Source: Rosa chinensis (taxonomy: Eukaryota > Streptophyta > Magnoliopsida > Rosales > Rosaceae). From it: a stretch of DNA of 64,000 nucleotides. The position numbers and the translations under genes were made by a program. The stretch covers positions 14,817,001 to 14,881,000 of the forward strand of contig NC_037094.1 in assembly GCF_002994745.2 (NCBI RefSeq), in the 5' to 3' direction. Positions 29,466-58,110 of this stretch are shown here, in pieces. Below the pieces are notes generated by a model, which was not told the DNA's origin, searched no databases, and worked only from the letters and a program-made list of their open reading frames with translations. Each line of letters begins with the position of its first letter. Within the stretch, counting starts at the first letter, position 1.

Positions 29466-29978
29466 TGGGATTCATTTTGTTTTTTTCGTTTTGGTTGCTT
29501 TTTTGCTGCATTTCAGATGATGAACATGGTTGATCAAAAAAAAAAAGAAAAAAAAATGATGAACATGGAGTTTCGGGAGGAAAGGGAAAAACCAATTATT
29601 TTTAATTTTGAATTTATTTATTTAGGGTTTGATGGAGTGAAAAAGTCTTTTTTGCCCTCATTTTGCGACTCACGTGCATCACACGTGGTCAAGTTAACGG
29701 CTCCTTGACAGAAAATGGCCGTGGGTACTACGTTGATAAGAAAAATTGAGTCTGGGTATTACTTTGATAACTTTGTAAGTTCGGGTATCATATTGTCAGT
29801 CACCCAAGTCTCCAGACACTGTTGGTGCAAAAAACCCAATTATAATTTACCAACATGTTACAGCTCACTGACATAAATAAATAAATAATATAAATTTAAA
29901 ACAAGCTAAAATAAATTGACTAATCAAAATGATATTTTGAGTTACTTTAATTAAAATTTAACTACAAAATTAGCTAGC

Positions 29979-32165
29979 TGATAGGAGCATTTTAATGTGA
30001 TATTTTAATAGTTAATTCCTCACATTTTGCTTAGTTAATTCCTTAACTGAATCGATTTTTAATTCAATTTCTATTTTTAGGTACATTGGAGTAAATGAAG
30101 GTGAAATGAGCGTTAGGTCCATAATTACCTAGAAATGATGGAGAAGAATGAAAATGCACTAAAAAGTCAACCTTGAATATTTTCTTACTCCGGCTAGGAG
30201 AATCAGAGCCAAGCAAGGAAGAAGGAGCGGCCGCCTGACCAAATGAACTTCAAATGAGCTGAAACCTTCCAGATCCATTCTAGACACCCAAAGGATCATT
30301 TCTTATGAAGAGTGCCAGAGAAAAATATGAGTGGAAGGCCTTCAAACAATCAGCCCAATTTTCTACAGAAGCAAAACCGGAAAACTGGACCTGTAAGAGG
30401 TCCAGCAGCATTTCCGGCCCAACCACATGGATTGAAGCTCTGAAAATTTGTCAGGATGATCTACACTCATAGTGGAACATTTCATATGAAGAAGTCAAAG
30501 GCATATAATGAAGTCTTGTTGGAGAAATAATTGAAGGAATAAAGGGGAAGAAACTGACCTGAAAACAGCTCAACACCACATATTCATGTTTCCCACCCAC
30601 ATGAAGAAAGCTAGATGCTTTTCTCTTTTTCCTTGGATATATTTTTTCTACAATCTCTTTAATAGATCATCATCACTTCCATGTTGCTGCACCTTCATGC
30701 TTTGCTTTCATTTCATCATTTCTCTTTCTTTTCCATATTTTACAAATCACTTTCATACTCCACTTTCATTATTTTTCTTCCACTCATCATTTCACTCTTC
30801 TTTTTCTTCCCTATATAAACACCTTCTCCTCTCATTCTAAAACACATTCCTTCATCCATCTCATCTTCTTTGTCTCTCCATTTCCTTTCCATTTTCCTAA
30901 ACCAATTCCTTCATCCATCTCATCTTTTTGTCTCTCCATTTCCTTTCCATTTTCATTTTCCATTCTCTAGTTCTTAGTTTTGCATTTTCAAGTAAAGAGA
31001 AGAAGAAGAAGCCGTGAGGACATAGCCTCCATCATCCACCTTGAAGGCTTGCTTCCAAGATTCAAGATCTAACCATCTAGCTCTCCATCTCCATCTCCAC
31101 TCACGGTGTAATTCGTTCCTTTTCCTTGTAACCTTTTTGGTTTCCTTGTTTGATTTTGTATGAACTTGTTTCTAGTTAACAATAATGTTTAGGGAAAAGT
31201 TTAAGCCCAATTTCTATGTTTAAATAAAGTTTTCGAATTCTATAATTGTGATTCTAAGTTGCTTATGTGAGTTTGTTCGATTAAATTTGCTTTACAGAAA
31301 ACTTTTATATGTTTATCTTATTTGGGTCGACACTTATAGGATTTGCATGTAATTGGTGCTAGGTTTAAGAACATGAAATCGACTTTTCGTTTTGTGTAAC
31401 TTGAATCAAAAGTAGTAAAGGTTTTGGACAAAAATCGAATTTAATTGAAGAGGATTGCAATTAGGTGAACTTATTCATACTAAGTTGTACACTTGAGTTG
31501 ATAGCCTTTCTCTATGTGTAATGCGTTAAACATGACATGATTGACTAGCTTTCTAGGGTTTGATTGCATGTTTGATAGGATTAATCTAGGTGCTTTCGCT
31601 TAGGTTAATTAGCATTGAAAAGTAAAATATGGGAAATCATTTGCTTTCGAATGTTTCACATGATCAACTCCTCTCTCATGACTTGGAAGAACAATTATAG
31701 GGTTTGAATCGAATTTGATTACATGGAATTGATTTTGATCTTTGATCCTTGCGTTCCACCCTTGTATATATGTTTTTACGTTTTCTTTATTTTATTTATT
31801 TTAATTTTAATTTTAAGAATCCTAATCCCCCCCCCCCTTATTTGTGTTTACTTGTATATATTTACTCTTTATTTTATTTTTGTAAATAATACTTTATTAT
31901 TTTAATTCTTTATTTGTTTATACAATTGTATATATTTATATTCTTTATTTTATTTTTGTAAATAATACTTTATTATTTTAATTCTTTATTTGTTTATACA
32001 ATTGTATATATTTATATTCTTTATTTTATTTTTGTAAATAATACTTTTCTTTATTTGTTTCACAATTACAAGTGTACCCTCAATCCCCGGATAGAACGAT
32101 CCCTATTTGCTTATACTACTAACGATATTTCAGGGTTAAATTGTGCGCTTCCCAAGAGCGCGTCA
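29979..32165 (+). repeat. 5' LTR (2187 bp)
   Basis: TGATAGGAG...GCGCGTCA. It differs from the 3' LTR by roughly six substitutions, a C-run of 10 versus 7, and an extra copy of a 76-bp AT-rich unit near 31885-32035. A TATA-like ctatataaac at 30812 precedes the probable transcript start; the short ORF before it is identical in both LTRs and is not a gene. Confidence 0.95.
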
Positions 32166-32170
32166 ATTTT

Positions 32171-32189
32171 TGGCGCCGTTGCCGGGGAT
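32171..32189 (+). other. primer binding site, tRNA-Asp
   Basis: tggcgccgttgccggggat begins 5 bp after the LTR and is complementary to the 3' end of plant tRNA-Asp(GUC) including CCA. This primer type is typical of several plant Ty3 lineages. Confidence 0.85.
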
Positions 32190-33325
32190 TGAAAAATCAC
32201 TTGCTAAATTGTGTCATTTATTGTATATATTTGTTGTATATAAATTGTTTAAAACTTAGTTTAAATATTATTTATATTATTGAACACGAATTTTAATTGT
32301 AGGTTGTAAATTGAGAGGAATAGGTGAAGTCTCTTTTGTTAATATTGGCCTAAACCCCTTATTGGTACCTAGCTCAGGTCCCTTAAGGTTGAGGGCGGCC
32401 TTTATTAACACTTGTTGAACTGTCTTCACACTTATGAACTTTTTCATCTTAGTAAGCATAGCCTATGTGGAATGGTGTCTAGGAAGGGGACAACGTTCAT
32501 GACGGGTTTTTGAATCCAGAAGTGCTTGCAAATGGGCCTAAACCACAATGTGGGAGTAGCTCATGCCAAAATGGATTTTTCCTCTCGTGTTCGTCCTCCC
32601 CCACCTGGCCATTTCAGTAAGGTTGCCCAAACGATTTGAAAGGGAGTTTGTGTCTGGGCGACTATACTTGGGCCGCACGTCCACTTGATTTACCGCTTGG
32701 AATTTGATTCGATATCAATAATGTTTATAATAAAAGAAATACTTGTGAATATTCTATACGTGTAAATTTTTTTTTTTTTTTGTTTCACACTTTAAACTTG
32801 TAAAAATACTTTTCACGTTTTATACTCACTTGAGTACTTAACTTGTGTCTTATGTACAATATACTTGTTAATTATACTTGTAGTTTGTAATTAATAGTTA
32901 TACTTGTTTTTATTTTGTATTTGTTTGTTAGTTATAGTTACTAACTTTATTTAATGTAGGTACTGTCTGGCTGCAAGACGTAAAATACAAGCGCTACTTG
33001 GGAGGCAAACCAATTCAGATTATAATCAGATTTGCTTTCTCTTTCCCTATTTCTTTTTATTTTTCAATTTTTCTCTTTAGTTTTTATTTTAGGATTTGTT
33101 TTCGTAAATGTCTTCTATCTATGCTTACTTATTACATTGCATGCTTTTAATTGATTACATTAAAGATAATGCAATATTTAAGTGTGGGGGAAGAGATTTA
33201 TATTTTTGTCTTTCATTTTGAGTCCTATATATTTATATTTGTCTTTTATTTTTGAGTCCTTTATATAAAAAATAAAAATAAAAAAAAATAAAAACTGCAT
33301 TCATTCTATCTTATTAAATTCAGCT

Positions 33326-33363
<38 letters not shown>
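32190..33363 (+). other. element interior, 5' untranslated and Ty3-type fragment ending in poly(A)
   Basis: No ORF of note. Near 32990 a motif cttgggaggcaaacc resembles the block that follows pol in Tat/Athila-like elements, followed at 33180-33195 by a purine tract aagtgtgggggaagag and then at 33331-33363 a run of about 33 A. The same order (ggaggcaac motif, then gtatgggggaagg) recurs at 35228-35440, so the interior looks assembled from two related pieces with the homeobox gene between them. Confidence 0.55.
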
Positions 33364-33365
<2 letters not shown>

Positions 33366-33377
33366 TTATACACTATA

Positions 33378-34028
33378 CTAAGCTATGTCTGCATTTCCGT
33401 AGGAGTTGAGGCTGAGCTCAAGGGAAATGCGAGAGTCACCGCCATAGCCGCTACCTCCCTCGGAAGTAGTCTTCATGTTGCCAAAGATGTCCTCACCATG
33501 CATGGGGAATAGTGGAAGGGTTTCAATCTCCTGGTGATCTCCTCCTCGTTGTTCCATGAAAGATTGTCCTCCTGTTGTGCCAAAGGAGGCAGTACTGGTA
33601 TTAGTGTTGAAGGGTGAGGAGGAATATGGGTCAACACCATAGCCGACACGTGACCCAAAGTTTAGATCAATGGATCTACCATCATCAGTAGAACTAGTGG
33701 ATCCAAAATTGAGATCGAGAGATCCACCAACCGGAACGTTCTGAAATTCCTTCAACTTCTGCCTCTCACGAGCCTTGAGGTTCTGGAACCAAAAGAAGAC
33801 GTTTTTGTCCTCGATCTGCCCATACTGTTTCAGATGAAGGCAGATCTCTTGAATCTGCTCTGGAGTTGGGTACTTAAAACCCTTATCATAGTAAAGGCCC
33901 TTGAGGATTCTTAGTTGAGGCGGTGTGGGAGCCCACCGGTTACTACTCCCGGCTGCTTGGATGCTTCCTCCCTCCTCGGTTGGTTGCTGGGCTTGTAATT
34001 CCATTTGTTGCTGGGTTTGTAACTCCAT
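33378..34028 (-). CDS. WUSCHEL-type homeobox protein inside an LTR retrotransposon (216 aa)
   Basis: Uninterrupted ORF antisense to the element. A WOX homeodomain spans about residues 30-95: RWAPTPPQLRILKGLYY, PTPEQIQEI, and the recognition helix NVFFWFQNLKARERQK. The ILKxLYY helix-1 motif points to WUSCHEL itself rather than other WOX members; the usual WFQNHKAR has Leu for His. Two DLNFGS repeats lie at 105-110 and 121-126, a WUS box TLPLFPMH at 170-177 and an EAR-like LELSL at 203-207, the repressor motifs that recruit TOPLESS. Plant WUS is about 290 aa, so the linker is shortened. No intron interrupts the ORF, whereas WOX genes usually have at least one, so an mRNA intermediate is likely. 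An upstream in-frame ATG at 34052 (MEP, as in WUS) is followed by TGA, so 34028 is the usable start. A TATA-like box lies 135 bp upstream. Whether it is expressed is unknown. Confidence 0.88.
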   Translation of the reverse strand: MELQTQQQMELQAQQPTEEGGSIQAAGSSNRWAPTPPQLRILKGLYYDKGFKYPTPEQIQEICLHLKQYGQIEDKNVFFWFQNLKARERQKLKEFQNVPVGGSLDLNFGSTSSTDDGRSIDLNFGSRVGYGVDPYSSSPFNTNTSTASFGTTGGQSFMEQRGGDHQEIETLPLFPMHGEDIFGNMKTTSEGGSGYGGDSRISLELSLNSYGNADIA

Positions 34029-34162
34029 TAGTTGCAGAGTTCATGGTTCCATGTTGATGAAGAAAGGATTTGAGTTTCGAAAGAAAGGCTGAAGGGTTGA
34101 GAGAGAAAGGCTGGAACTCGGAAGAATTTTCTTTTGGAGTGAACAGTCGCTCAGAATGCACC

Positions 34163-34170
34163 TATTTATA
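34163..34170 (-). promoter_or_regulatory. TATA-like box upstream of the WUS-like ORF
   Basis: On the minus strand ctataaatagg lies about 135 bases before the ATG, in ordinary plant promoter context. It suggests the gene piece brought or acquired its own promoter rather than relying on the LTR, which reads the opposite way. Confidence 0.45.
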
Positions 34171-34600
34171 GAACGAGTGAGCATATCTCCACCGTTGGAT
34201 GGACGATCTCTGAAATTAAATCTACGCGTTGGATTAAAGTCACCCGAAAACACGGAAAAGCTGTTGACGCGTGGAGGACACGAGGAGCTGTGACAGACAA
34301 GTTATAGCCGAAAGCATGCCATAAATCCAGGAAAAGAAAGGACACGTGGGGGAACCAAACGAATCTCGAGGAGCTGTGACAGACAAGCTACAGCCGAAAG
34401 CAGGTCTAATTGCCATAAATCTAGGAAAAGAAAGGAATATTTACGCGTGGGGGAGTTTTTCATGTGCATACGTGTTTCTTGGGCCGTGAACTGTCATAAC
34501 TCTTCTCCTTCCCGGAGAAGCTTTGTTAAAACCGTGTGCCTGTTGAGATTTCTACCCTATTTTGTGCTTTACATATACATCCTTTTTGTCTCCTCCAGAT
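34171..34600 (-). other. putative promoter region of the WUS-like gene
   Basis: Contains two copies of a block around gaggagctgtgacagacaag (34282 and 34367) followed by tacagccgaaagca / tatagccgaaagca, ccataaat and aggaaaagaaagga, i.e. a direct repeat of about 85 bp. Several acgcgtgg/acacgtgg motifs (G-box-like) are present. Function is inferred only from position. Confidence 0.4.
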
Positions 34601-34611
34601 TTTACTAAGGT

Positions 34612-35181
34612 TTGTCTAAGCGTGCAGTTTCAAATTCCTTCTACTTCCTCATGGCTCGAACCAAGGTAACCCCTCGCAGGGGCGTCAATCAACGCCGTGT
34701 TCTCTCTTTGGAGGAAGAAGGTCGTCAAGCGGCTACTAGAGCTGGGCTTACTCGTCCATGGGACCATCGTCCTATCCGTGAGCGTACCCGCAGTCCCCCT
34801 CCTCTACCTCGTCGCTCTCCCAGACTGCATCCCGGAGAGTCTTCTTCCTCACCAGCTGCTCGTGCTCCTCGGCCTATGGTCACCCTGGAAAGCTTGTCGG
34901 ATTTGATTGATGATTTGCGTTCCTCTCTCCGCGATGGTATTATGGTGACAGATTGGAGAGTCAATTGCATGATCGATTACATCTCTGAGATGAACTGCTC
35001 TTTGATCCGCTGTCACACTGCAATAAACAAGCTTGCTCAGGAAGTCAATAACTTGCAGAGTTATCCTCCTGGGTTTCCTCGCAAGGACGCTACTGCATCA
35101 CAACATGAGGACCCGCCTCCGAAGGCTGAAACCAGCAAGAGGGCTGCCACTCGCCCGCATACCGCTCCTCCAAAGGAGTAA
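34612..35181 (+). CDS. element ORF of unknown function (180-189 aa)
   Basis: Sense to the element. The better start is ATG 34651 (MARTKVTPRRGVNQRR), giving a 176-residue protein; an upstream ATG at 34612 adds 13 residues. The N-terminal half is basic and Pro/Arg-rich (RERTRSPPPLPRRSPRL), the middle is a helical stretch (LESLSDLIDDLRSSLRD through NKLAQEVNNLQ) that could form a coiled coil, and the tail is Pro/Lys-rich. It shows no protease, RT, integrase or zinc knuckle. Ty3 elements of Tat/Athila type often carry an extra ORF around here; I cannot name it. The first five residues equal the histone H3 tail, possibly by chance. Confidence 0.5.
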   Translation: MSKRAVSNSFYFLMARTKVTPRRGVNQRRVLSLEEEGRQAATRAGLTRPWDHRPIRERTRSPPPLPRRSPRLHPGESSSSPAARAPRPMVTLESLSDLIDDLRSSLRDGIMVTDWRVNCMIDYISEMNCSLIRCHTAINKLAQEVNNLQSYPPGFPRKDATASQHEDPPPKAETSKRAATRPHTAPPKE

Positions 35182-37206
35182 ATGGAGGTACAAGTCTAGG
35201 CTGAAAGACTTTAAACATTAAGCACTGCATGGGAGGCAACCCATTTCAACCGTAGCTGTGGAGGAGACATCAAACGCAGATTTGCTTTCTTGAACTCTTC
35301 CTTCTATTTTATTTTCTTAAATTTTAAGTTGTTTTAGGTTTCGTTGTGTTCATTTTCTCTTCTATGCTTGATTTATGCTTTGCATGATTTATATTTGTTT
35401 ATACATTGAGGACAATGCATGAATTAAGTATGGGGGAAGGGTTATTGCTTTATTGTGTTTTTAGTAGTTAGTATATAAAGAAAAAAAAAAAATTGTTGTG
35501 TTTTTATTGTGTTTTTAGTTGATGTTGTGATACACTAAGGTATATTGGATTAAACATAGTCTTGAAAAAGGGTAGCTGTTTCAGTCCCATTGCACATCGA
35601 GACTCCCTGTTCCCGTACCTAAGTGTTGAAATTAAATTAAATTGTAAAAAAAAAAAAAAAAAAAAAATTTGTTGGTTTTAGAGTGTTTTTGTTTGTGTGT
35701 TTGAGTCTTAGGATGCTCCTAACGTCTAGGATGAACATGTCTCCGAATTCATGGCTGAAGGTTTTCATAATCAAAATAGGACTTAATTGAATTCTGTGGT
35801 TAATCGACATTGTGATGCTTGTATGAAGATTTGAGATAGGATTGTAACTTGGTTCATTAAGCATGTCAGGATTAAGTTTGATTCATTTGACCCAAGTGAG
35901 CTATTGAGCTAAAATACTTTCTTTTTGAGTGCTTACTGATAAATCCAGAATTTCGTGGCTGTATTTGCAAAACCTCATCATTCTTTGAAAATCCAATGAT
36001 CATGTGCCATAGATTTTAATGGACTAGAGAATACTAGAACTCGACTGTTGTGACTGTCAAAACTTGTATGCCATAATATGCACTGATCCTGGATAGGATA
36101 GAAGGCATTAGGGTAACCACCAAAGCCAAACAAGCATGTGTCCCCAATTGTGCCCGTCGTGGGACTCCTTAGAATGAACCCCTTTGAGCCTACGTTGAAA
36201 ACCTTTGTTTCATCACCCTCACTACCCTACCATGAGCTTAGTACAGGATATCTCTACCCTTGTCTTAAGGACTTAGTAGAGCATGACATAGTATGTAGGG
36301 GTGACGATGAAAGACAAGTATGGGGTGGGAAAAATCCAAGAAAAAAAAAATTTGCCTTGAAAAAAAAAATAATAAATAAATAAATAAAGAAAGAAAGAAA
36401 GAAAGAAAAGCGGCAAAAGAGAAGAAAAATTGAAAAGAAAACTCTTGGGAAAATGTTGAAGTGTGGTTTTGGACTTGCAAATTTGTAGAAGGCTCAAAGT
36501 TGAAAATTATGCCTTTGTCCATTCTCATGTTGGTTAGAGTGAAGGTTTGGCCCAAAACAATGATATTTGGTCTACAAAAATGATGACATAAGGTGGTCCT
36601 TATATGCTCTGCTAGGTCCTTAGGATTTTTTTGTATCCTTAATCTTCATTTCGAAAACCCTAGCTTAGCCCCATTACAACCTGTTTTAAGTGCTGACTTG
36701 ATCCTTGAGATGGGCAGTCTTTGGTTAGTGGAGTCAGTTACGCAGTCGAGCTTATGGTTTAGGTCCATTTGTGCACTTAGTCATTTCATGAGGTCTTTAA
36801 AAATTCTTCACAAAATGTATTTATTGATGAAATATGCAAGCTGTTTGTTGCCTTACAATTTGTTCTCTTGCATATACTTGAGTGTGAAGCTTTTAAGCAT
36901 AGCCATTTCTGAGAGAAAAATCGAGAGTATGCCCTGTGAGTTTGGATTAGACTTGTTCGAAACATGCTATCATTCACTGTATAACTTAAGTTCTCCATAT
37001 CTTGCTTAGTCATATGAATGTCACAGGTTTATTAACCATGGAATTATCTTTGTGATTTTGATTAAGTGTTTAACGTGAAAGCCATGAGTTTGGAGTCTCT
37101 GAGACAACAGTTAGGAGCAATAGAGTCATTTACTTGCTTTTTCTCAAGTCTTTGTTCTGTTTTGGATTTTTTTTTGTTTTGTTTTGCTAAGGGACTAGCA
37201 AAAGCT
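35182..37206 (+). other. element interior, 3' non-coding part
   Basis: Begins with a tgggaggcaacccatttcaa motif (35230), then a purine tract at 35427-35440 and about 1.7 kb of AT-rich, ORF-poor DNA with poly(A)/(AAAT)n/(AAAG)n runs near 35645 and 36350-36410. This arrangement matches the long 3' untranslated region of Tat/Athila-like Ty3 elements. No gene is supported. Confidence 0.5.
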
Positions 37207-37221
37207 AAGTGTGGGGGAATT
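37207..37221 (+). other. polypurine tract
   Basis: aagtgtgggggaatt directly precedes the 3' LTR; it is the expected plus-strand primer. Confidence 0.8.
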
Positions 37222-39329
37222 TGATAGGAGCATTTTAATGTGATATTTTAATAGTTAATTCCTCACATTTTGCTTAGTTAATTCCTTAACTGAATCGATT
37301 TTTAATTCAATTTCTATTTTTAGGTACATTGGAGTAAATGAAGGTGAAATGAGCGTTAGGTCCATAATTACCTAGAAATGATGGAGAAGAATGAAAATGC
37401 ACTAAAAAGTCAACCTTGAATATTTTCTTACTCCGGCTAGGAGAATCAGAGCCAAGCAAGGAAGAAGGAGCGGCCGCCTGACCAAATGAACTTCAAATGA
37501 GCTGAAACCTTCCAGATCCATTCTAGACACCCAAAGGATCATTTCTTATGAAGAGTGCCAGAGAAAAATATGAGTGGAAGGCCTTCAAACAATCAGCCCA
37601 ATTTTCTACAGAAGCAAAACCGGAAAACTGGACCTGTAAGAGGTCCAGCAGCATTTCCGGCCCAACCACATGGATTGAAGCTCTGAAAATTTGTCAGGAT
37701 GATCTACACTCATAGTGGAACATTTCATATGAAGAAGTCAAAGGCATATAATGAAGTCTTGTTGGAGAAATAATTGAAGGAATAAAGGGGAAGAAACTGA
37801 CCTGAAAACAGCTCAACACCACATATTCATGTTTCCCACCCACATGAAGAAAGCTAGATGCTTTTCTCTTTTTCCTTGGATATATTTTTTCTACAATCTC
37901 TTTAATAGATCATCATCACTTCCATGTTGCTGCACCTTTATGCTTTGCTTTCATTTCATCATTTCTCTTTCTTTTCCATATTTTACAAATCACTTTCATA
38001 CTCCACTTTCATTATTTTTCTTCCACTCATCATTTCACTCTTCTTTTTCTTCCCTATATAAACACCTTCTCCTCTCATTCTAAAACACATTCCTTCATCC
38101 ATCTCATCTTCTTTGTCTCTCCATTTCCTTTCCATTTTCCTAAACCAATTCCTTCATCCATCTCATCTTTTTGTCTCTCCATTTCCTTTCCATTTTCATT
38201 TTCCATTCTCTAGTTCTTAGTTTTGCATTTTCAAGTAAAGAGAAGAAGAAGAAGCCGTGAGGACATAGCCTCCATCATCCACCTTGAAGGCTTGCTTCCA
38301 AGATTCAAGATCCAACCATCTAGCTCTCCATCTCCATCTCCACTCACGGTGTAATTCGTTCCTTTTCCTTGTAACCTTTTTGGTTTCCTTGTTTGATTTT
38401 GTATGAACTTGTTTCTAGTTAACAATAATGTTTAGGGCAAAGTTTAAGCCCAATTTCTATGTTTAAATAAAGTTTTCGAATTCTATAATTGTGATTCTAA
38501 GTTGCTTATGTGAGTTTGTTCGATTAAATTTGCTTTACAGAAAACTTTTATATGTTTATCTTATTTGGGTCGACACTTATAGGATTTGCATGTAATTGGT
38601 GCTAGGTTTAAGAACATGAAATCGACTTTTCGTTTTGTGTAACTTGAATCAAAAGTAGTAAAGGTTTTGGACAAAAATCGAATTTAATTGAAGATGATTG
38701 CAATTAGGTGAACTTATTCATACTAAGTTGTACACTTGAGTTGATAGCCTTTCTCTATGTGTAATGCGTTAAACATGACATGATTGACTAGCTTTCTAGG
38801 GTTTGATTGCATGTTTGATAGGATTAATCTAGGTGCTTTCGCTTAGGTTAATTAGCATTGAAAAGTAAAATATGGGAAATCATTTGCTTTCGAATGTTTC
38901 ACATGATCAACTCCTCTCTCATGACTTGGAAGAACAATTATAGGGTTTGAATCGAATTTGATTACATGGAATTGATTTTGATCTTTGATCCTTGCGTTCC
39001 ACCCTTGTATATATGTTTTTACGTTTTCTTTATTTTATTTATTTTAATTTTAATTTTAAGAATCCTAATCCCCCCCCTTATTTGTGTTTACTTGTATATA
39101 TTTACTTTTTATTTTATTTTTGTAAATAATACTTTATTATTTTAATTCTTTATTTGTTTATACAATTGTATATATTTATATTCTTTATTTTATTTTTGTA
39201 AATAATACTTTTCTTTATTTGTTTCACAATTACAAGTGTACCCTCAATCCCCGGATAGAACGATCCCTATTTGCTTATACTACTAACGATATTTCAGGGT
39301 TAAATTGTGCGCTTCCCAAGAGCGCGTCA
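37222..39329 (+). repeat. 3' LTR (2108 bp)
   Basis: Nearly identical to the 5' LTR. It ends GCGCGTCA, followed by the target duplication ctagc and, 3 bp later, the Copia element. Confidence 0.95.
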
Positions 39330-39337
39330 CTAGCATT

Positions 39338-55907: not shown

Positions 55908-57733
55908 GCCATGAGAAAAAACTTAAATGATTGAAAATAATATGACAAAAATCGAAAATTTGGATCAGAATCTGAATGGTGGTGGATAGAACCAACCAAA
56001 TTAAGGTGTTTGTTGGTATCAATGTTTCGCAACCGAAAAACATCATGCACAACCATGTGTTACGAGATTTGAGAGATGAGAACCAAGTCAAAAACTTTGC
56101 CTTGCTAGCACATAACATTGATTCTCTGCAAAAATCTAATTTGTAGTTTTACTGTAAATAGAAGGGATGAGACTTACGGGTGAAGAAAGTGTTCGAAGAG
56201 CCAAGCCCGAAGAACCGAGACGGATCTCTCAGGAAGGCCACGTTGGGGCCGCCATGGATGACTCTCCATCATGTTCATCTGTTGAAAAGCTCTCTGCTGC
56301 CGGAGAGTTTGGTCGAGAATCCGAAGCCGAGGCGTCTCGCCTCGGCTTGCTCCGGGAGCCACCGGGTCTTTCTCCCCCATTGCTTTCCTTGTGGCCTGAA
56401 TCTGAGCTACAATCCCGTCTTTCAAGCTCCGGAAATGTCTTGACATGGCTTTCGAAGCCAGCTTAGAGTACACCGTGGCGGCTCCAGTCCCTGCCACGGT
56501 TTCGAAGGATGAGACCACAGCCTTCATCTGATCACAGTAGTGCTTGTATCTCCTCTCCACCTAATAAACCACATATGATCATGAAATTAAAAAATAAATG
56601 GAAAATAAAGGGTTTCTGGGTATTAATTGAAAGGCCTCCAAATTTGTTAGTTAGTGTAATAAACTAATCATGGAGACCTCAATTCATCAATACCCAGTAA
56701 ATTTTTTTAACTTTCCATTCTAATACACTCCCAGAAACTGAAAGTGGGGTTTCAAGGAAAGGAAGGGATCTTTTTCATGAAGCGAAATAAAAATAATTAC
56801 TAGTCAAGAAAATTACATAAATATTTATATCTACTTTACCTCTTCCAGCATTTGAAGCAGTCTGGTTTTTCTCTTCTGCAATTCAACGAATTCGAGGGAG
56901 TACAGGGAAGACTGCTTTTTCGAAGACGAAGAAGTACTGCCATTATTATTATCCTGATCGTCCCACTGTTTGGTTTTGTTTGACTTGTGCTTTGAAACTC
57001 CAAGAGCATCAGTCTGCTTTGTTCCGAGGCTACAGAACTCATTTAAGAGCTCCTGAGCTGGGCCTAAGTACTTTGAGTTTCTGAGCTGGAAAAGCCCAGA
57101 AGCTGCAGCTTGATTCTCATGAAGAAGAGATTGGTGACCAAGACCTGAGCTTTTACCCAAATACCCATCTTGCAATATCATATGACTCTGATTGATGCTC
57201 CCAATATCTTGATGATGATTTGTCTGCCTGAGTTCAAAGGACTGTAAGCCAATACTAGAGGGATTGGATGAGCTAAGAGAGAGTGAGAGGCCTTGGCTTG
57301 GCCTCTCATTACCTTCACATGGGAAAACACACCTCAATGAAGAATCATCAACAAGGAACCTATTGTTGCTGTTCTCCTGGTGCCAAGCTCCACCAGACTC
57401 CATTAGATTCTGGTTTTCGCTGCTCGTTTCCGACATGCCGGTTGTGTTGTACTCTTGCTGATGAGGATGGTAGAAATGATCGGCGCCTTTCGAAGATGAA
57501 GGTCCTCCTCCTCCTCCTCCATGTTTGGAGAAGAAGGCTCCTTTAGAGAAGCCTATCATCTCCATGCCAGTGGTCAAGTTGAAGATCTCTGCTGGGTTTG
57601 ACTGATCAAAGCCTTGGATCTGATTTGTGAACTGGTTCTGATGGTGGATGGTTGGATTCGCTGATGAAACATCCGAGTAGCAAAAACCAACTGATGAGGA
57701 CTTATGATCTTCACTGCACAGCTCTCTAGCCAT
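54762..57733 (-). CDS. BEL1: BEL1-type TALE homeodomain transcription factor (669 aa)
   Basis: Four coding exons on the minus strand: 57733-56840, 56560-56178, 55737-55677 and 55433-54762. Phases close exactly at 670 codons including stop. Domains in order: a ZIBEL-like GLSLSLSSS (about 148-156), the SKY motif [14 protein letters not shown] (220-233), the BELL helix region (about 283-350), and a TALE homeodomain (about 394-456) with the PYP insertion and recognition helix [16 protein letters not shown]-terminal motifs are GVSLTLGL and a [16 protein letters not shown] end. The N-terminal [24 protein letters not shown] and this C-terminus are those of Arabidopsis BEL1, not other BLH genes. BEL1 is a nuclear protein that pairs with KNOX partners and specifies ovule integument identity. 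Introns 1 and 2 are GT-AG; intron 3 appears to be GC-AG. A 5' UTR intron is possible (donor near 57892). Confidence 0.95.
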
Positions 57734-58110
57734 GGAAAAGAAACTCAGATTCTGTCTTCTTCTTCACAACAAAAAGAAGAAAGAAAGAAATTAATTAATT
57801 AATGAGAAACTTGAAGAATATGAATCAATCAAATCAAGATCAAGAGTCCAAATTGATGAAAAACCCGAAAAGGTAGTTATATATATTTACCAAGTGGATG
57901 TGGAGGTTGAGTATGTATGTTGGGGTGGTGATGGTGGTGGGCTTCTTCTGTTTCTCAGACTTGTTCTGTTAATAAGCCAACAGGGTGAGCCATGAAAGCC
58001 CGAACCTAGGAAGAAAAGATCAAATATATCTCCTCAGAAATAGAAGATCAGATAGGGCTGATGATGACCTCCTAACCATGTTCATCATTTCATTTCATTT
58101 CATATATGGC

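Follow-up and report, generated by a model that had tools for sequence, protein, structure and literature searches.

Why does a young retrotransposon of rose carry an intact plant stem-cell regulator, and is this gene a passenger or a working part of the element? The question is raised by a 64-kb stretch of the Rosa chinensis genome (C7:14817001-14881000; hereafter the window), in which a long terminal repeat (LTR) retrotransposon encloses a WUSCHEL-type homeobox gene of the WOX family. The window was compared with the whole genome (515 Mb searched). A sequence-only reading of the window had noticed the gene and proposed that it arrived through an mRNA and spreads with the element; this observation was confirmed, and the interpretation is supported by our analysis. 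The results point to an old capture of a spliced WUSCHEL (WUS) mRNA and show strong purifying selection on the homeodomain, but not on the linker, of the captured gene.

A WUS-Type Gene in a Young Non-autonomous Element

The element (Table 1) has the features of an LTR retrotransposon: paired LTRs with TG...CA ends, a perfect 5-bp target-site duplication (TSD), a primer-binding site (PBS) and a polypurine tract (PPT). The boundaries drawn in the sequence-only reading are therefore correct. Across 2,108 aligned bases the LTRs show 3 transitions and 2 transversions, 5 substitutions in all (Kimura two-parameter distance, K2P, 0.0024), which corresponds to an age of about 0.1 million years at a substitution rate of 1.3e-8 per site and year. 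The 5′ LTR is 79 bp longer than the 3′ LTR, mostly through one additional 76-bp repeat copy. Because a PBS-like sequence follows the left LTR and a PPT-like sequence precedes the right one, the element reads from left to right, and the homeobox open reading frame (ORF), located on the minus strand, is therefore antisense, as had been noted.

Besides the WOX gene and a sense ORF of 176 aa (ORF176), the 5,056-bp internal region of the window element contains no ATG-started ORF longer than 99 aa, and in a Pfam search of five ORFs of the element the homeodomain was the sole match. The element is a young non-autonomous LTR retrotransposon: LTRs, PBS and PPT are kept, gag-pol is absent and the internal region spans several kb. 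We take large retrotransposon derivative (LARD) to be the name of this class, from whose type the window element differs by its two conserved ORFs. The gag, pol and lineage-typical reverse transcriptase of an autonomous Ty3/gypsy Tat or Retand element were not found, and the lineage is not assignable, since no gag or pol is recognisable; the PBS and PPT look, in our judgment, Tat-like.

The WOX ORF is open over 216 aa. Its homeodomain, taken as residues 31-94, matched Pfam PF00046 (6.5e-11) and the WUSCHEL structure 6ry3 (7e-22), and the protein carries the WUS box TLPLFPMH and the EAR-like motif SLELSL, with SIDLNFGS-type repeats between. The WOX homeodomain, the TL.LFP core of the WUS box and the phylogenetic position (see below) place it in the WUS/modern clade of WOX proteins. 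In a comparison of eight Rosa multi-copy WOX proteins with two host WUS proteins, 29 homeodomain positions, TL.LFP and SLELSL were invariant, whereas the linker of the eight was replaced by the SIDLNFGS-type repeats. The protein, described earlier as a nearly complete regulator, has been remodelled, its middle part having been replaced and the native last residues lost.

In WUS numbering (homeodomain codon plus 37), the element protein retains N90, which we take to be a residue with a known role in the WUS homeodomain, and shows the changes Y86 to F, H91 to L and F101 to E. Also retained are K82, A93, R94, I66 and F85, whose roles, including the reading of a base by R94 of AtWUS, are described in the available text of PMC7203112. 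At the residue after WF (Q89 in AtWUS), Q is replaced by V or G in the older copies L074, L075, L077, L069 and L071; a shift of DNA-binding specificity in some clades is possible.

Origin of the Captured Gene

In a search with Fragaria WUS, the native rose WUS matched as separate blocks at C2:11711808-11713110, and six long copies at other places continued without a break through the intron positions. In the copy L069 both native introns (about 83 and 333 bp; GT..AG lies no more than 2 bases from the ends of the matches) have been removed exactly: the native exons (stretches L072 and L084 combined) abut, with native 1382|1466 and 1578|1912 corresponding to L069 1889|1887 and 1999|1998. The second join of L069 recurs exactly in L070, L071 and L073, whose first join additionally lacks some 30-40 bp of exon. 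Such removal of introns is that of a processed copy. The window ORF is itself continuous but lacks the region of both joins, and its mRNA origin rests on the older copies.

In L070 the native sequence reaches some 282 bp upstream of the ATG if a later insert in the native gene is disregarded. In the alignment, L069-L071 share the TATA segment and leader of the window element, which are absent from the 975 bp above the native ATG; BLAST supported the segment in L069 (78.5% over 79 bp) and L070 (76.7% over 86 bp), and at E 1e-5 left that of L071 unsupported. Because the introns are gone from the older copies and the element's TATA segment is common to them, we regard element-borne capture of a spliced WUS mRNA as virtually certain, in agreement with the mRNA intermediate postulated earlier. 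The mRNA with its 5′ leader would so have come behind a promoter that is now internal to the element. At the 3′ end, by protein reading, native NSYG-YNTTNYY became NSYG-(S/L)TLFS... in L069, L070, L071 and L073; in the youngest copies the terminus is NSYG or a similar sequence plus a short AD.A tail.

We constructed a maximum-likelihood tree of 70 proteins, comprising 46 Rosa WOX rows (chosen by hand, one without a species name; partial and very short rows were left out), the window protein, the native rose WUS, 8 Rosaceae and 14 other WUS proteins. The 47 Rosa WOX proteins, Rosa rugosa sequences among them, formed one clade (97/88) sister to the native rose WUS (99/86), with Argentina and Fragaria WUS branching next (100/100). 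This single clade beside the native gene places the capture most likely in the line leading to Rosa. The gene was captured long ago and became fixed in a family, and not, as the sequence-only reading implied, captured by one young element. A WUS gene outside the element does exist, namely the native one, yet it has introns and its flanking DNA is different.

The native WUS stretch (L072 and L084; C2:11711700-11714100, 2,401 bp) contains at positions 417-754 a 338-bp insert. Its interpretation as an intron of the 5′ untranslated region was rejected, as it has no GT..AG ends; it is flanked by the 16-bp repeat ACCTCTCTGTCAACTT, begins in a T-run and resembles a short interspersed element. The insert is absent from the captured copy L070 and was therefore probably inserted after the capture.

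Family Size and Mobility

Genome-wide pattern counts (at most 3 mismatches) gave 473 matches to a 30-mer of the WOX homeodomain, 434 to a 30-mer of ORF176 and 1,349 to a 33-mer of the LTR start; reversed patterns, used as control, gave 0. A protein search of the same genome yielded 682 WOX and 689 ORF176 first-look candidates, 150 of each being scored. Twenty whole elements and 20 short stretches were fetched by WOX similarity, and 20 stretches by ORF176, the latter drawn at random from 103 rows out of the 150 listed; the rows outside these 103 were, by eye, nearly all ones whose WOX was already among the scored WOX candidates, which biases the draw against similarity.

With the window included, an LTR pair was present in 20 of 21 whole elements (all except L020). 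For 19 of these 20 pairs K2P was at most 0.0112, and eight showed zero substitutions (compared over 1.7-2.1 kb, except for L028 with 421 bp); the LTR pair of L014 (0.114) is probably wrong or nested. A 5-bp TSD was found at 13 of the 21 elements, and all 13 differed; of the eight others, four end at the edge of the fetched sequence and one is L020. The element thus occupies sites with different TSDs, and the spread of the gene with it, as earlier proposed, is borne out.

The WOX gene could be read in 41 of 42 copies (the window, the 20 whole elements, L008 and the 20 short stretches; L047 is incomplete in its stretch), and in 35 of the 41 it was open over at least 190 codons. Among the 20 loci picked by ORF176, the gene stood at the predicted place in 19 and was intact in 17; one copy had a stop at codon 166, one was incomplete, and one locus had no WOX in the 821 bp fetched.

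The young copies are unevenly distributed: of 78 exact matches to the ORF176 30-mer at placed positions (81 when unplaced contigs are counted), 77 fall within 100.9 of 503.9 Mb, in blocks drawn after seeing the data (C1:55.6-68.5, C2:33.7-88.6, C3:0-16.6 and C7:2.7-19.2 Mb), unlike the older WOX copies, which occur on all seven chromosomes. These blocks may be segments from one ancestor of a hybrid rose. Some copies are spaced about 7 kb or 14.8 kb apart (C2:38740930-38761058, C2:69354242-69370591, C7:15789514-15803532) and look like tandem arrays formed by LTR recombination or segmental duplication.

Purifying Selection on the Homeodomain

Figures for the whole ORF first spoke against selection (dN/dS 0.52 over all pairs; nearly flat diversity at the codon positions, 0.0164, 0.0202 and 0.0212), and the picture was altered by splitting the ORF into domains. 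We used 52 copies with intact frames. Of these, 35 came from the ranking by WOX similarity; since that ranking went by resemblance to the window protein, a second sample, of 17 copies, was chosen by ORF176. Pairwise pN/pS was 0.043-0.059 in the homeodomain (kappa 1-3), 0.52-0.73 in the N-terminus and 0.71-0.86 in the part after the homeodomain. Distinct changes were then compared with a neutral spectrum of 241 changes in noncoding DNA of the element (P-values are approximate). The homeodomain had 19 synonymous and 6 nonsynonymous changes, 0.149 of the neutral value (P=8.4e-6), and the same held for the 35 WOX-ranked copies (14 and 5; 0.169, P=2.4e-4) and the 17 ORF176-picked copies (8 and 2; 0.12, P=0.0028). 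The part after the homeodomain had 28 synonymous and 62 nonsynonymous changes (0.76, P=0.23) and the N-terminus 12 and 19 (0.54, P=0.10; 1.03 in the ORF176-picked set). No variant among the 52 copies touches R94 or N90.

Scrambled frames evolving at dN/dS near 1 would have spoken for decay, but the gene is intact at 17 of the 20 ORF176-picked loci and the homeodomain changes are far from neutral. Compared with the native gene, homeodomain dN/dS was 0.28 for the young copies, 0.15 for L069/L071 and 0.27-0.60 for other clades. Selection has probably preserved the homeodomain during its residence in the element. Purifying selection, shown for the homeodomain only, and the presence of the gene in most copies are the marks of an accessory gene and suggest that the element has made the captured gene a part of its own equipment. 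The neighboring ORF176 also showed constraint in 16 elements (28 synonymous and 33 nonsynonymous changes; 0.43 of neutral, P=0.0013).

A Cassette on Different LTR Backbones

Over the 120 pairs of 16 elements, the mean distance was 0.182 for the LTRs and 0.160 for the internal-region tail, and 0.029 for the segment 32200-35500 with WOX and ORF176, this last value being low partly from the way elements were picked, and the most divergent LTRs being possibly in part misaligned. LTR and tail distances were correlated (0.73), LTR and cassette distances were not (-0.06), and discordances such as an LTR distance of 0.34 with a cassette distance of 0.028 exceed the effects of picking and misalignment. 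Our analysis shows a WOX and ORF176 cassette on strongly diverged LTR backbones, for which template switching between co-packaged RNAs would be the simplest mechanism.

A sibling without WOX (L085) has the same LTR start and an LTR spacing of 5.4 kb, of which 1.5 kb was seen. It matches window positions 32789-33407 and 35687-36064, and between them has a 61-aa piece that we take to be gag-like, so the cassette stands in place of this piece; a 71-aa frame of L085 had no Pfam hit. The 61-aa piece matches, at about 91% identity, a family with many open frames of 410-525 aa at C5:48-51, C6:29-36 and C7:37-41 Mb and on unplaced contigs. Judged from these open frames, the family is a possible helper candidate.

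Table 1. Features of the window element (window positions).
Feature	Position	Strand	Sequence
TSD, left copy	29974-29978	.	CTAGC
5′ LTR, 2,187 bp, one 76-bp repeat copy more than the 3′ LTR	29979-32165	+	
PBS-like	32167-32188	+	TTTTTGGCGCCGTTGCCGGGGA
Internal duplication, copy 1, PPT-like at its end, 70.7% like 35277-35439	33027-33193	+	AAGTGTGGGGGAA
WUSCHEL-type gene (WOX), 216 aa, intronless	33378-34028	-	
Spacer, 622 bp, between divergent WOX and ORF176, holds the TATA box	34029-34650	-	
TATA box of the WOX gene	34163-34171	-	CTATAAATA
ORF176, sense ORF, 176 aa	34651-35181	+	
Internal duplication, copy 2, with PPT-like sequence	35277-35439	+	AAGTATGGGGGAA
Internal-region tail, divergent among copies (mean p-distance 0.16), tracks the LTRs	35600-37200	+	
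PPT	37207-37221	+	AAGTGTGGGGGAATT
3′ LTR, 2,108 bp	37222-39329	+	
TSD, right copy	39330-39334	.	CTAGC

ORF176, which the sequence-only reading had passed over, stands head to head with the WOX gene. The TATA box in the spacer between them, noticed earlier as the gene's own, is intact in 14 of 16 aligned copies. ORF176 reached the cut-off of no Pfam family, and its named relatives occur only in Rosa; weak scores of these relatives below the cut-off (SlyX 0.0029 for P0124, DUF1664 0.095 for P0121) were not used. Its AlphaFold model is of low confidence (mean predicted local distance difference test, pLDDT, 59.2; predicted template modelling score, pTM, 0.27), with helices at 14-30, 79-96 and 102-136.

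The two copies of the internal duplication have PPT-like ends, and one lies downstream of each gene's end in element direction; L085 has segments related to this duplication. It may be the site where template switching joins cassettes. Elsewhere in the window, an open frame of 310 codons (56831-57763, minus strand) resembles, in our view, the start of a BEL1-like homeodomain gene and is probably an ordinary host gene.

Possible Function and Alternative Explanations

We propose that a rose non-autonomous LTR family long ago captured a spliced host WUSCHEL mRNA, which would have been placed antisense behind an element-internal TATA promoter and kept as an accessory gene. The WOX protein would be produced in certain cells, most likely those of the meristem or precursors of the germ line, where it would bind WUS-type DNA sites and alter transcription through its WUS box and EAR motif. 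The altered transcription would aid the spread of the family into the germ line, either by acting on transcription of the element or its helper, or by shifting cells towards a stem-cell state. A helper element must supply capsid, reverse transcriptase and integrase. An accessory DNA-binding regulator selected for element spread is the role that we favor, with moderate confidence, from the sequence comparisons, and the beneficiary is, with the same reservation, rather the element than the host.

Regulation of the element by its own protein through WUS sites in the LTR was considered and rejected. Only TGAA in U3 exceeded the shuffled sequences (26 vs 17.8, P=0.02 uncorrected). A tandem-like site 26 bp above the LTR TATA box in six of 20 elements (window, L009, L010, L019, L025 and L027) can be accounted for by LTR homology alone and was not used as evidence.

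Several observations weigh against the proposed role. WUS sites were not enriched in the LTR over 200 dinucleotide shuffles (tandem TGAW.?TGAW 2 vs 2.0, TAAT 36 vs 41.1, TGAA 43 vs 38.8). Over the whole ORF, dN/dS was 0.58 on internal and 0.38 on terminal branches; internal branches are thus not more constrained, the reverse of what selection on source copies predicts. Homeodomain dN/dS among the copied clades ranged from 0.35 to 1.03, so the domain changed fast at times, and 35 of the 52 copies were similarity-ranked, which favors few nonsynonymous changes. Five of the six long intronless WUS copies contain stops; L069-L071 were seen without their LTRs and L072-L083 as ORF only. WOX-less siblings with the same LTR start are apparently numerous, and the search from the gag-like piece of L085 did not identify the helper element. 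According to the available text of PMC11405225, 359 of 364 Rosa-only WOX genes were hardly expressed in RNA-seq of rooting cuttings, as would be expected if the genes were silenced except in special cells, or had no function. These genes form the Rosa-only clades I-V, which comprise 364 of the 381 RcWOX genes of that study; the clade V motifs given there match fetched copies such as L049, and the clades are probably the same genes as the element WOX.

Low expression, apparently numerous WOX-less siblings and internal branches no more constrained than terminal ones would also be expected of a neutral passenger, that is, of a WUS captured by accident, in which one or a few intact source elements amplified recently and the frames are open through youth. 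The low divergence of 19 of the 20 LTR pairs and the absence of a significant departure from neutrality in the N-terminus and the part after the homeodomain agree with this explanation. It does not account, however, for the sharp contrast within one ORF, where in three samplings the homeodomain stood at 0.12-0.17 of neutral and the part after it at 0.58-0.84. Moreover, 3-4% of homeodomain synonymous sites differ among copies, more than between a copy's own LTRs, and the WUS box and EAR motif are common to clades whose homeodomain dS from native WUS reaches about 0.7. A neutral passenger is unlikely, while being the rival that survives best.

If one or a few copies served the plant as WOX genes, selection would act at the host level and the remaining copies would be by-products. 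Five Rosa-only WOX genes with counts above 10 in at least three rooting periods, among the data available from PMC11405225, could be such genes. Yet dozens of young, dispersed copies show the constraint, many of them lying in different elements that each have a TSD of their own, and a few selected host loci cannot yield this pattern unless they are also source copies; we consider host co-option improbable. An RNA-level function, in which the antisense transcript would matter through double-stranded RNA with the genomic RNA, has been proposed for antisense transcripts of plant retroelements (PMC7264820, available part), and the conserved TATA box would suit it, but selection on homeodomain amino acids would be needless for a pure RNA role, which makes this explanation very hard to sustain. 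The ordinary expansion of a gene family through tandem or whole-genome duplication, put forward in PMC11405225 for the 381 RcWOX genes by authors who, in the available text, wanted more evidence, can be practically dismissed, being refuted for the copies examined by LTR pairs (20 of 21 elements), TSDs (13 of 21), missing introns and common element DNA on both sides, though local multiplication of some copies with the element may remain.

Comparison With Known Systems

The "381 WOX genes" of rose are explained as retrotransposon cargo, in keeping with the absence of collinear copies noted in PMC11405225 (available text), which treats RcWOX as a host family, suggests whole-genome duplication and does not contain the word stem "transpos". 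This is also a warning that gene-family counts, and quantitative PCR or editing targets drawn from them, can be element copies. In the open-access literature (subscription papers and preprints lying outside this scope), no paper tying the Rosa WOX copies to a retrotransposon was found among the matches listed.

WOX genes inside LTR retrotransposons have been reported for Vigna marina and V. riukiuensis (K. Naito, meeting report PMC10714607), so this kind of element is known, though not from rose. As in Rosa, the available account describes many copies (more than 1,000 in V. riukiuensis), most of which are enclosed by identical LTRs and have TSDs. Vigna belongs to another plant family, and the part of the account available does not give WOX type, orientation, origin or selection. 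Since the Rosa gene is sister to the native rose WUS, a shared origin is very unlikely, and Rosa is probably a second capture, independent of Vigna. A search with a Vigna WUS protein returned no multi-copy Vigna WOX among the best 120 of 2,450 matches listed.

Antisense accessory genes are described in maize Grande (gene23), rice RIRE2 and Silene Retand (PMC7264820, PMC11963269). According to the available parts of these sources, they resemble the Rosa gene in being conserved antisense ORFs present in most copies; gene23 has its own promoter and a nuclear protein, and DNA binding is predicted for TRP28 of Retand. For those ORFs, which are situated between pol and the 3′ LTR, there is no clear homologue in the host, whereas the Rosa element carries a captured host transcription factor and pol is absent. 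The TRP28 domain (PF04195) was not encountered in the Pfam search of the window-element ORFs. Transduction as in maize Bs1 also brings host gene sequence into an element, but usually, according to the available text of PMC7264820, in sense orientation with gag-pol and in one or few copies, whereas the Rosa gene is antisense and present in hundreds. An antisense accessory gene with a known host ancestor and biochemical role makes the purpose of such accessory ORFs directly testable.

Together with the Vigna report, our analysis suggests that stem-cell regulators are favored cargo. As a tentative and, taken as a whole, rather doubtful extension, retrotransposons may at least twice (in Rosa and, by report, in Vigna) have kept a stem-cell homeobox gene as a germ-line access factor. 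The element WUS would make the gamete-forming stem cells of the shoot permissive for the element's own family, selection at the level of the element and not of the plant would preserve the homeodomain, and the cassette would be a mobile accessory module that changes its LTR backbones.

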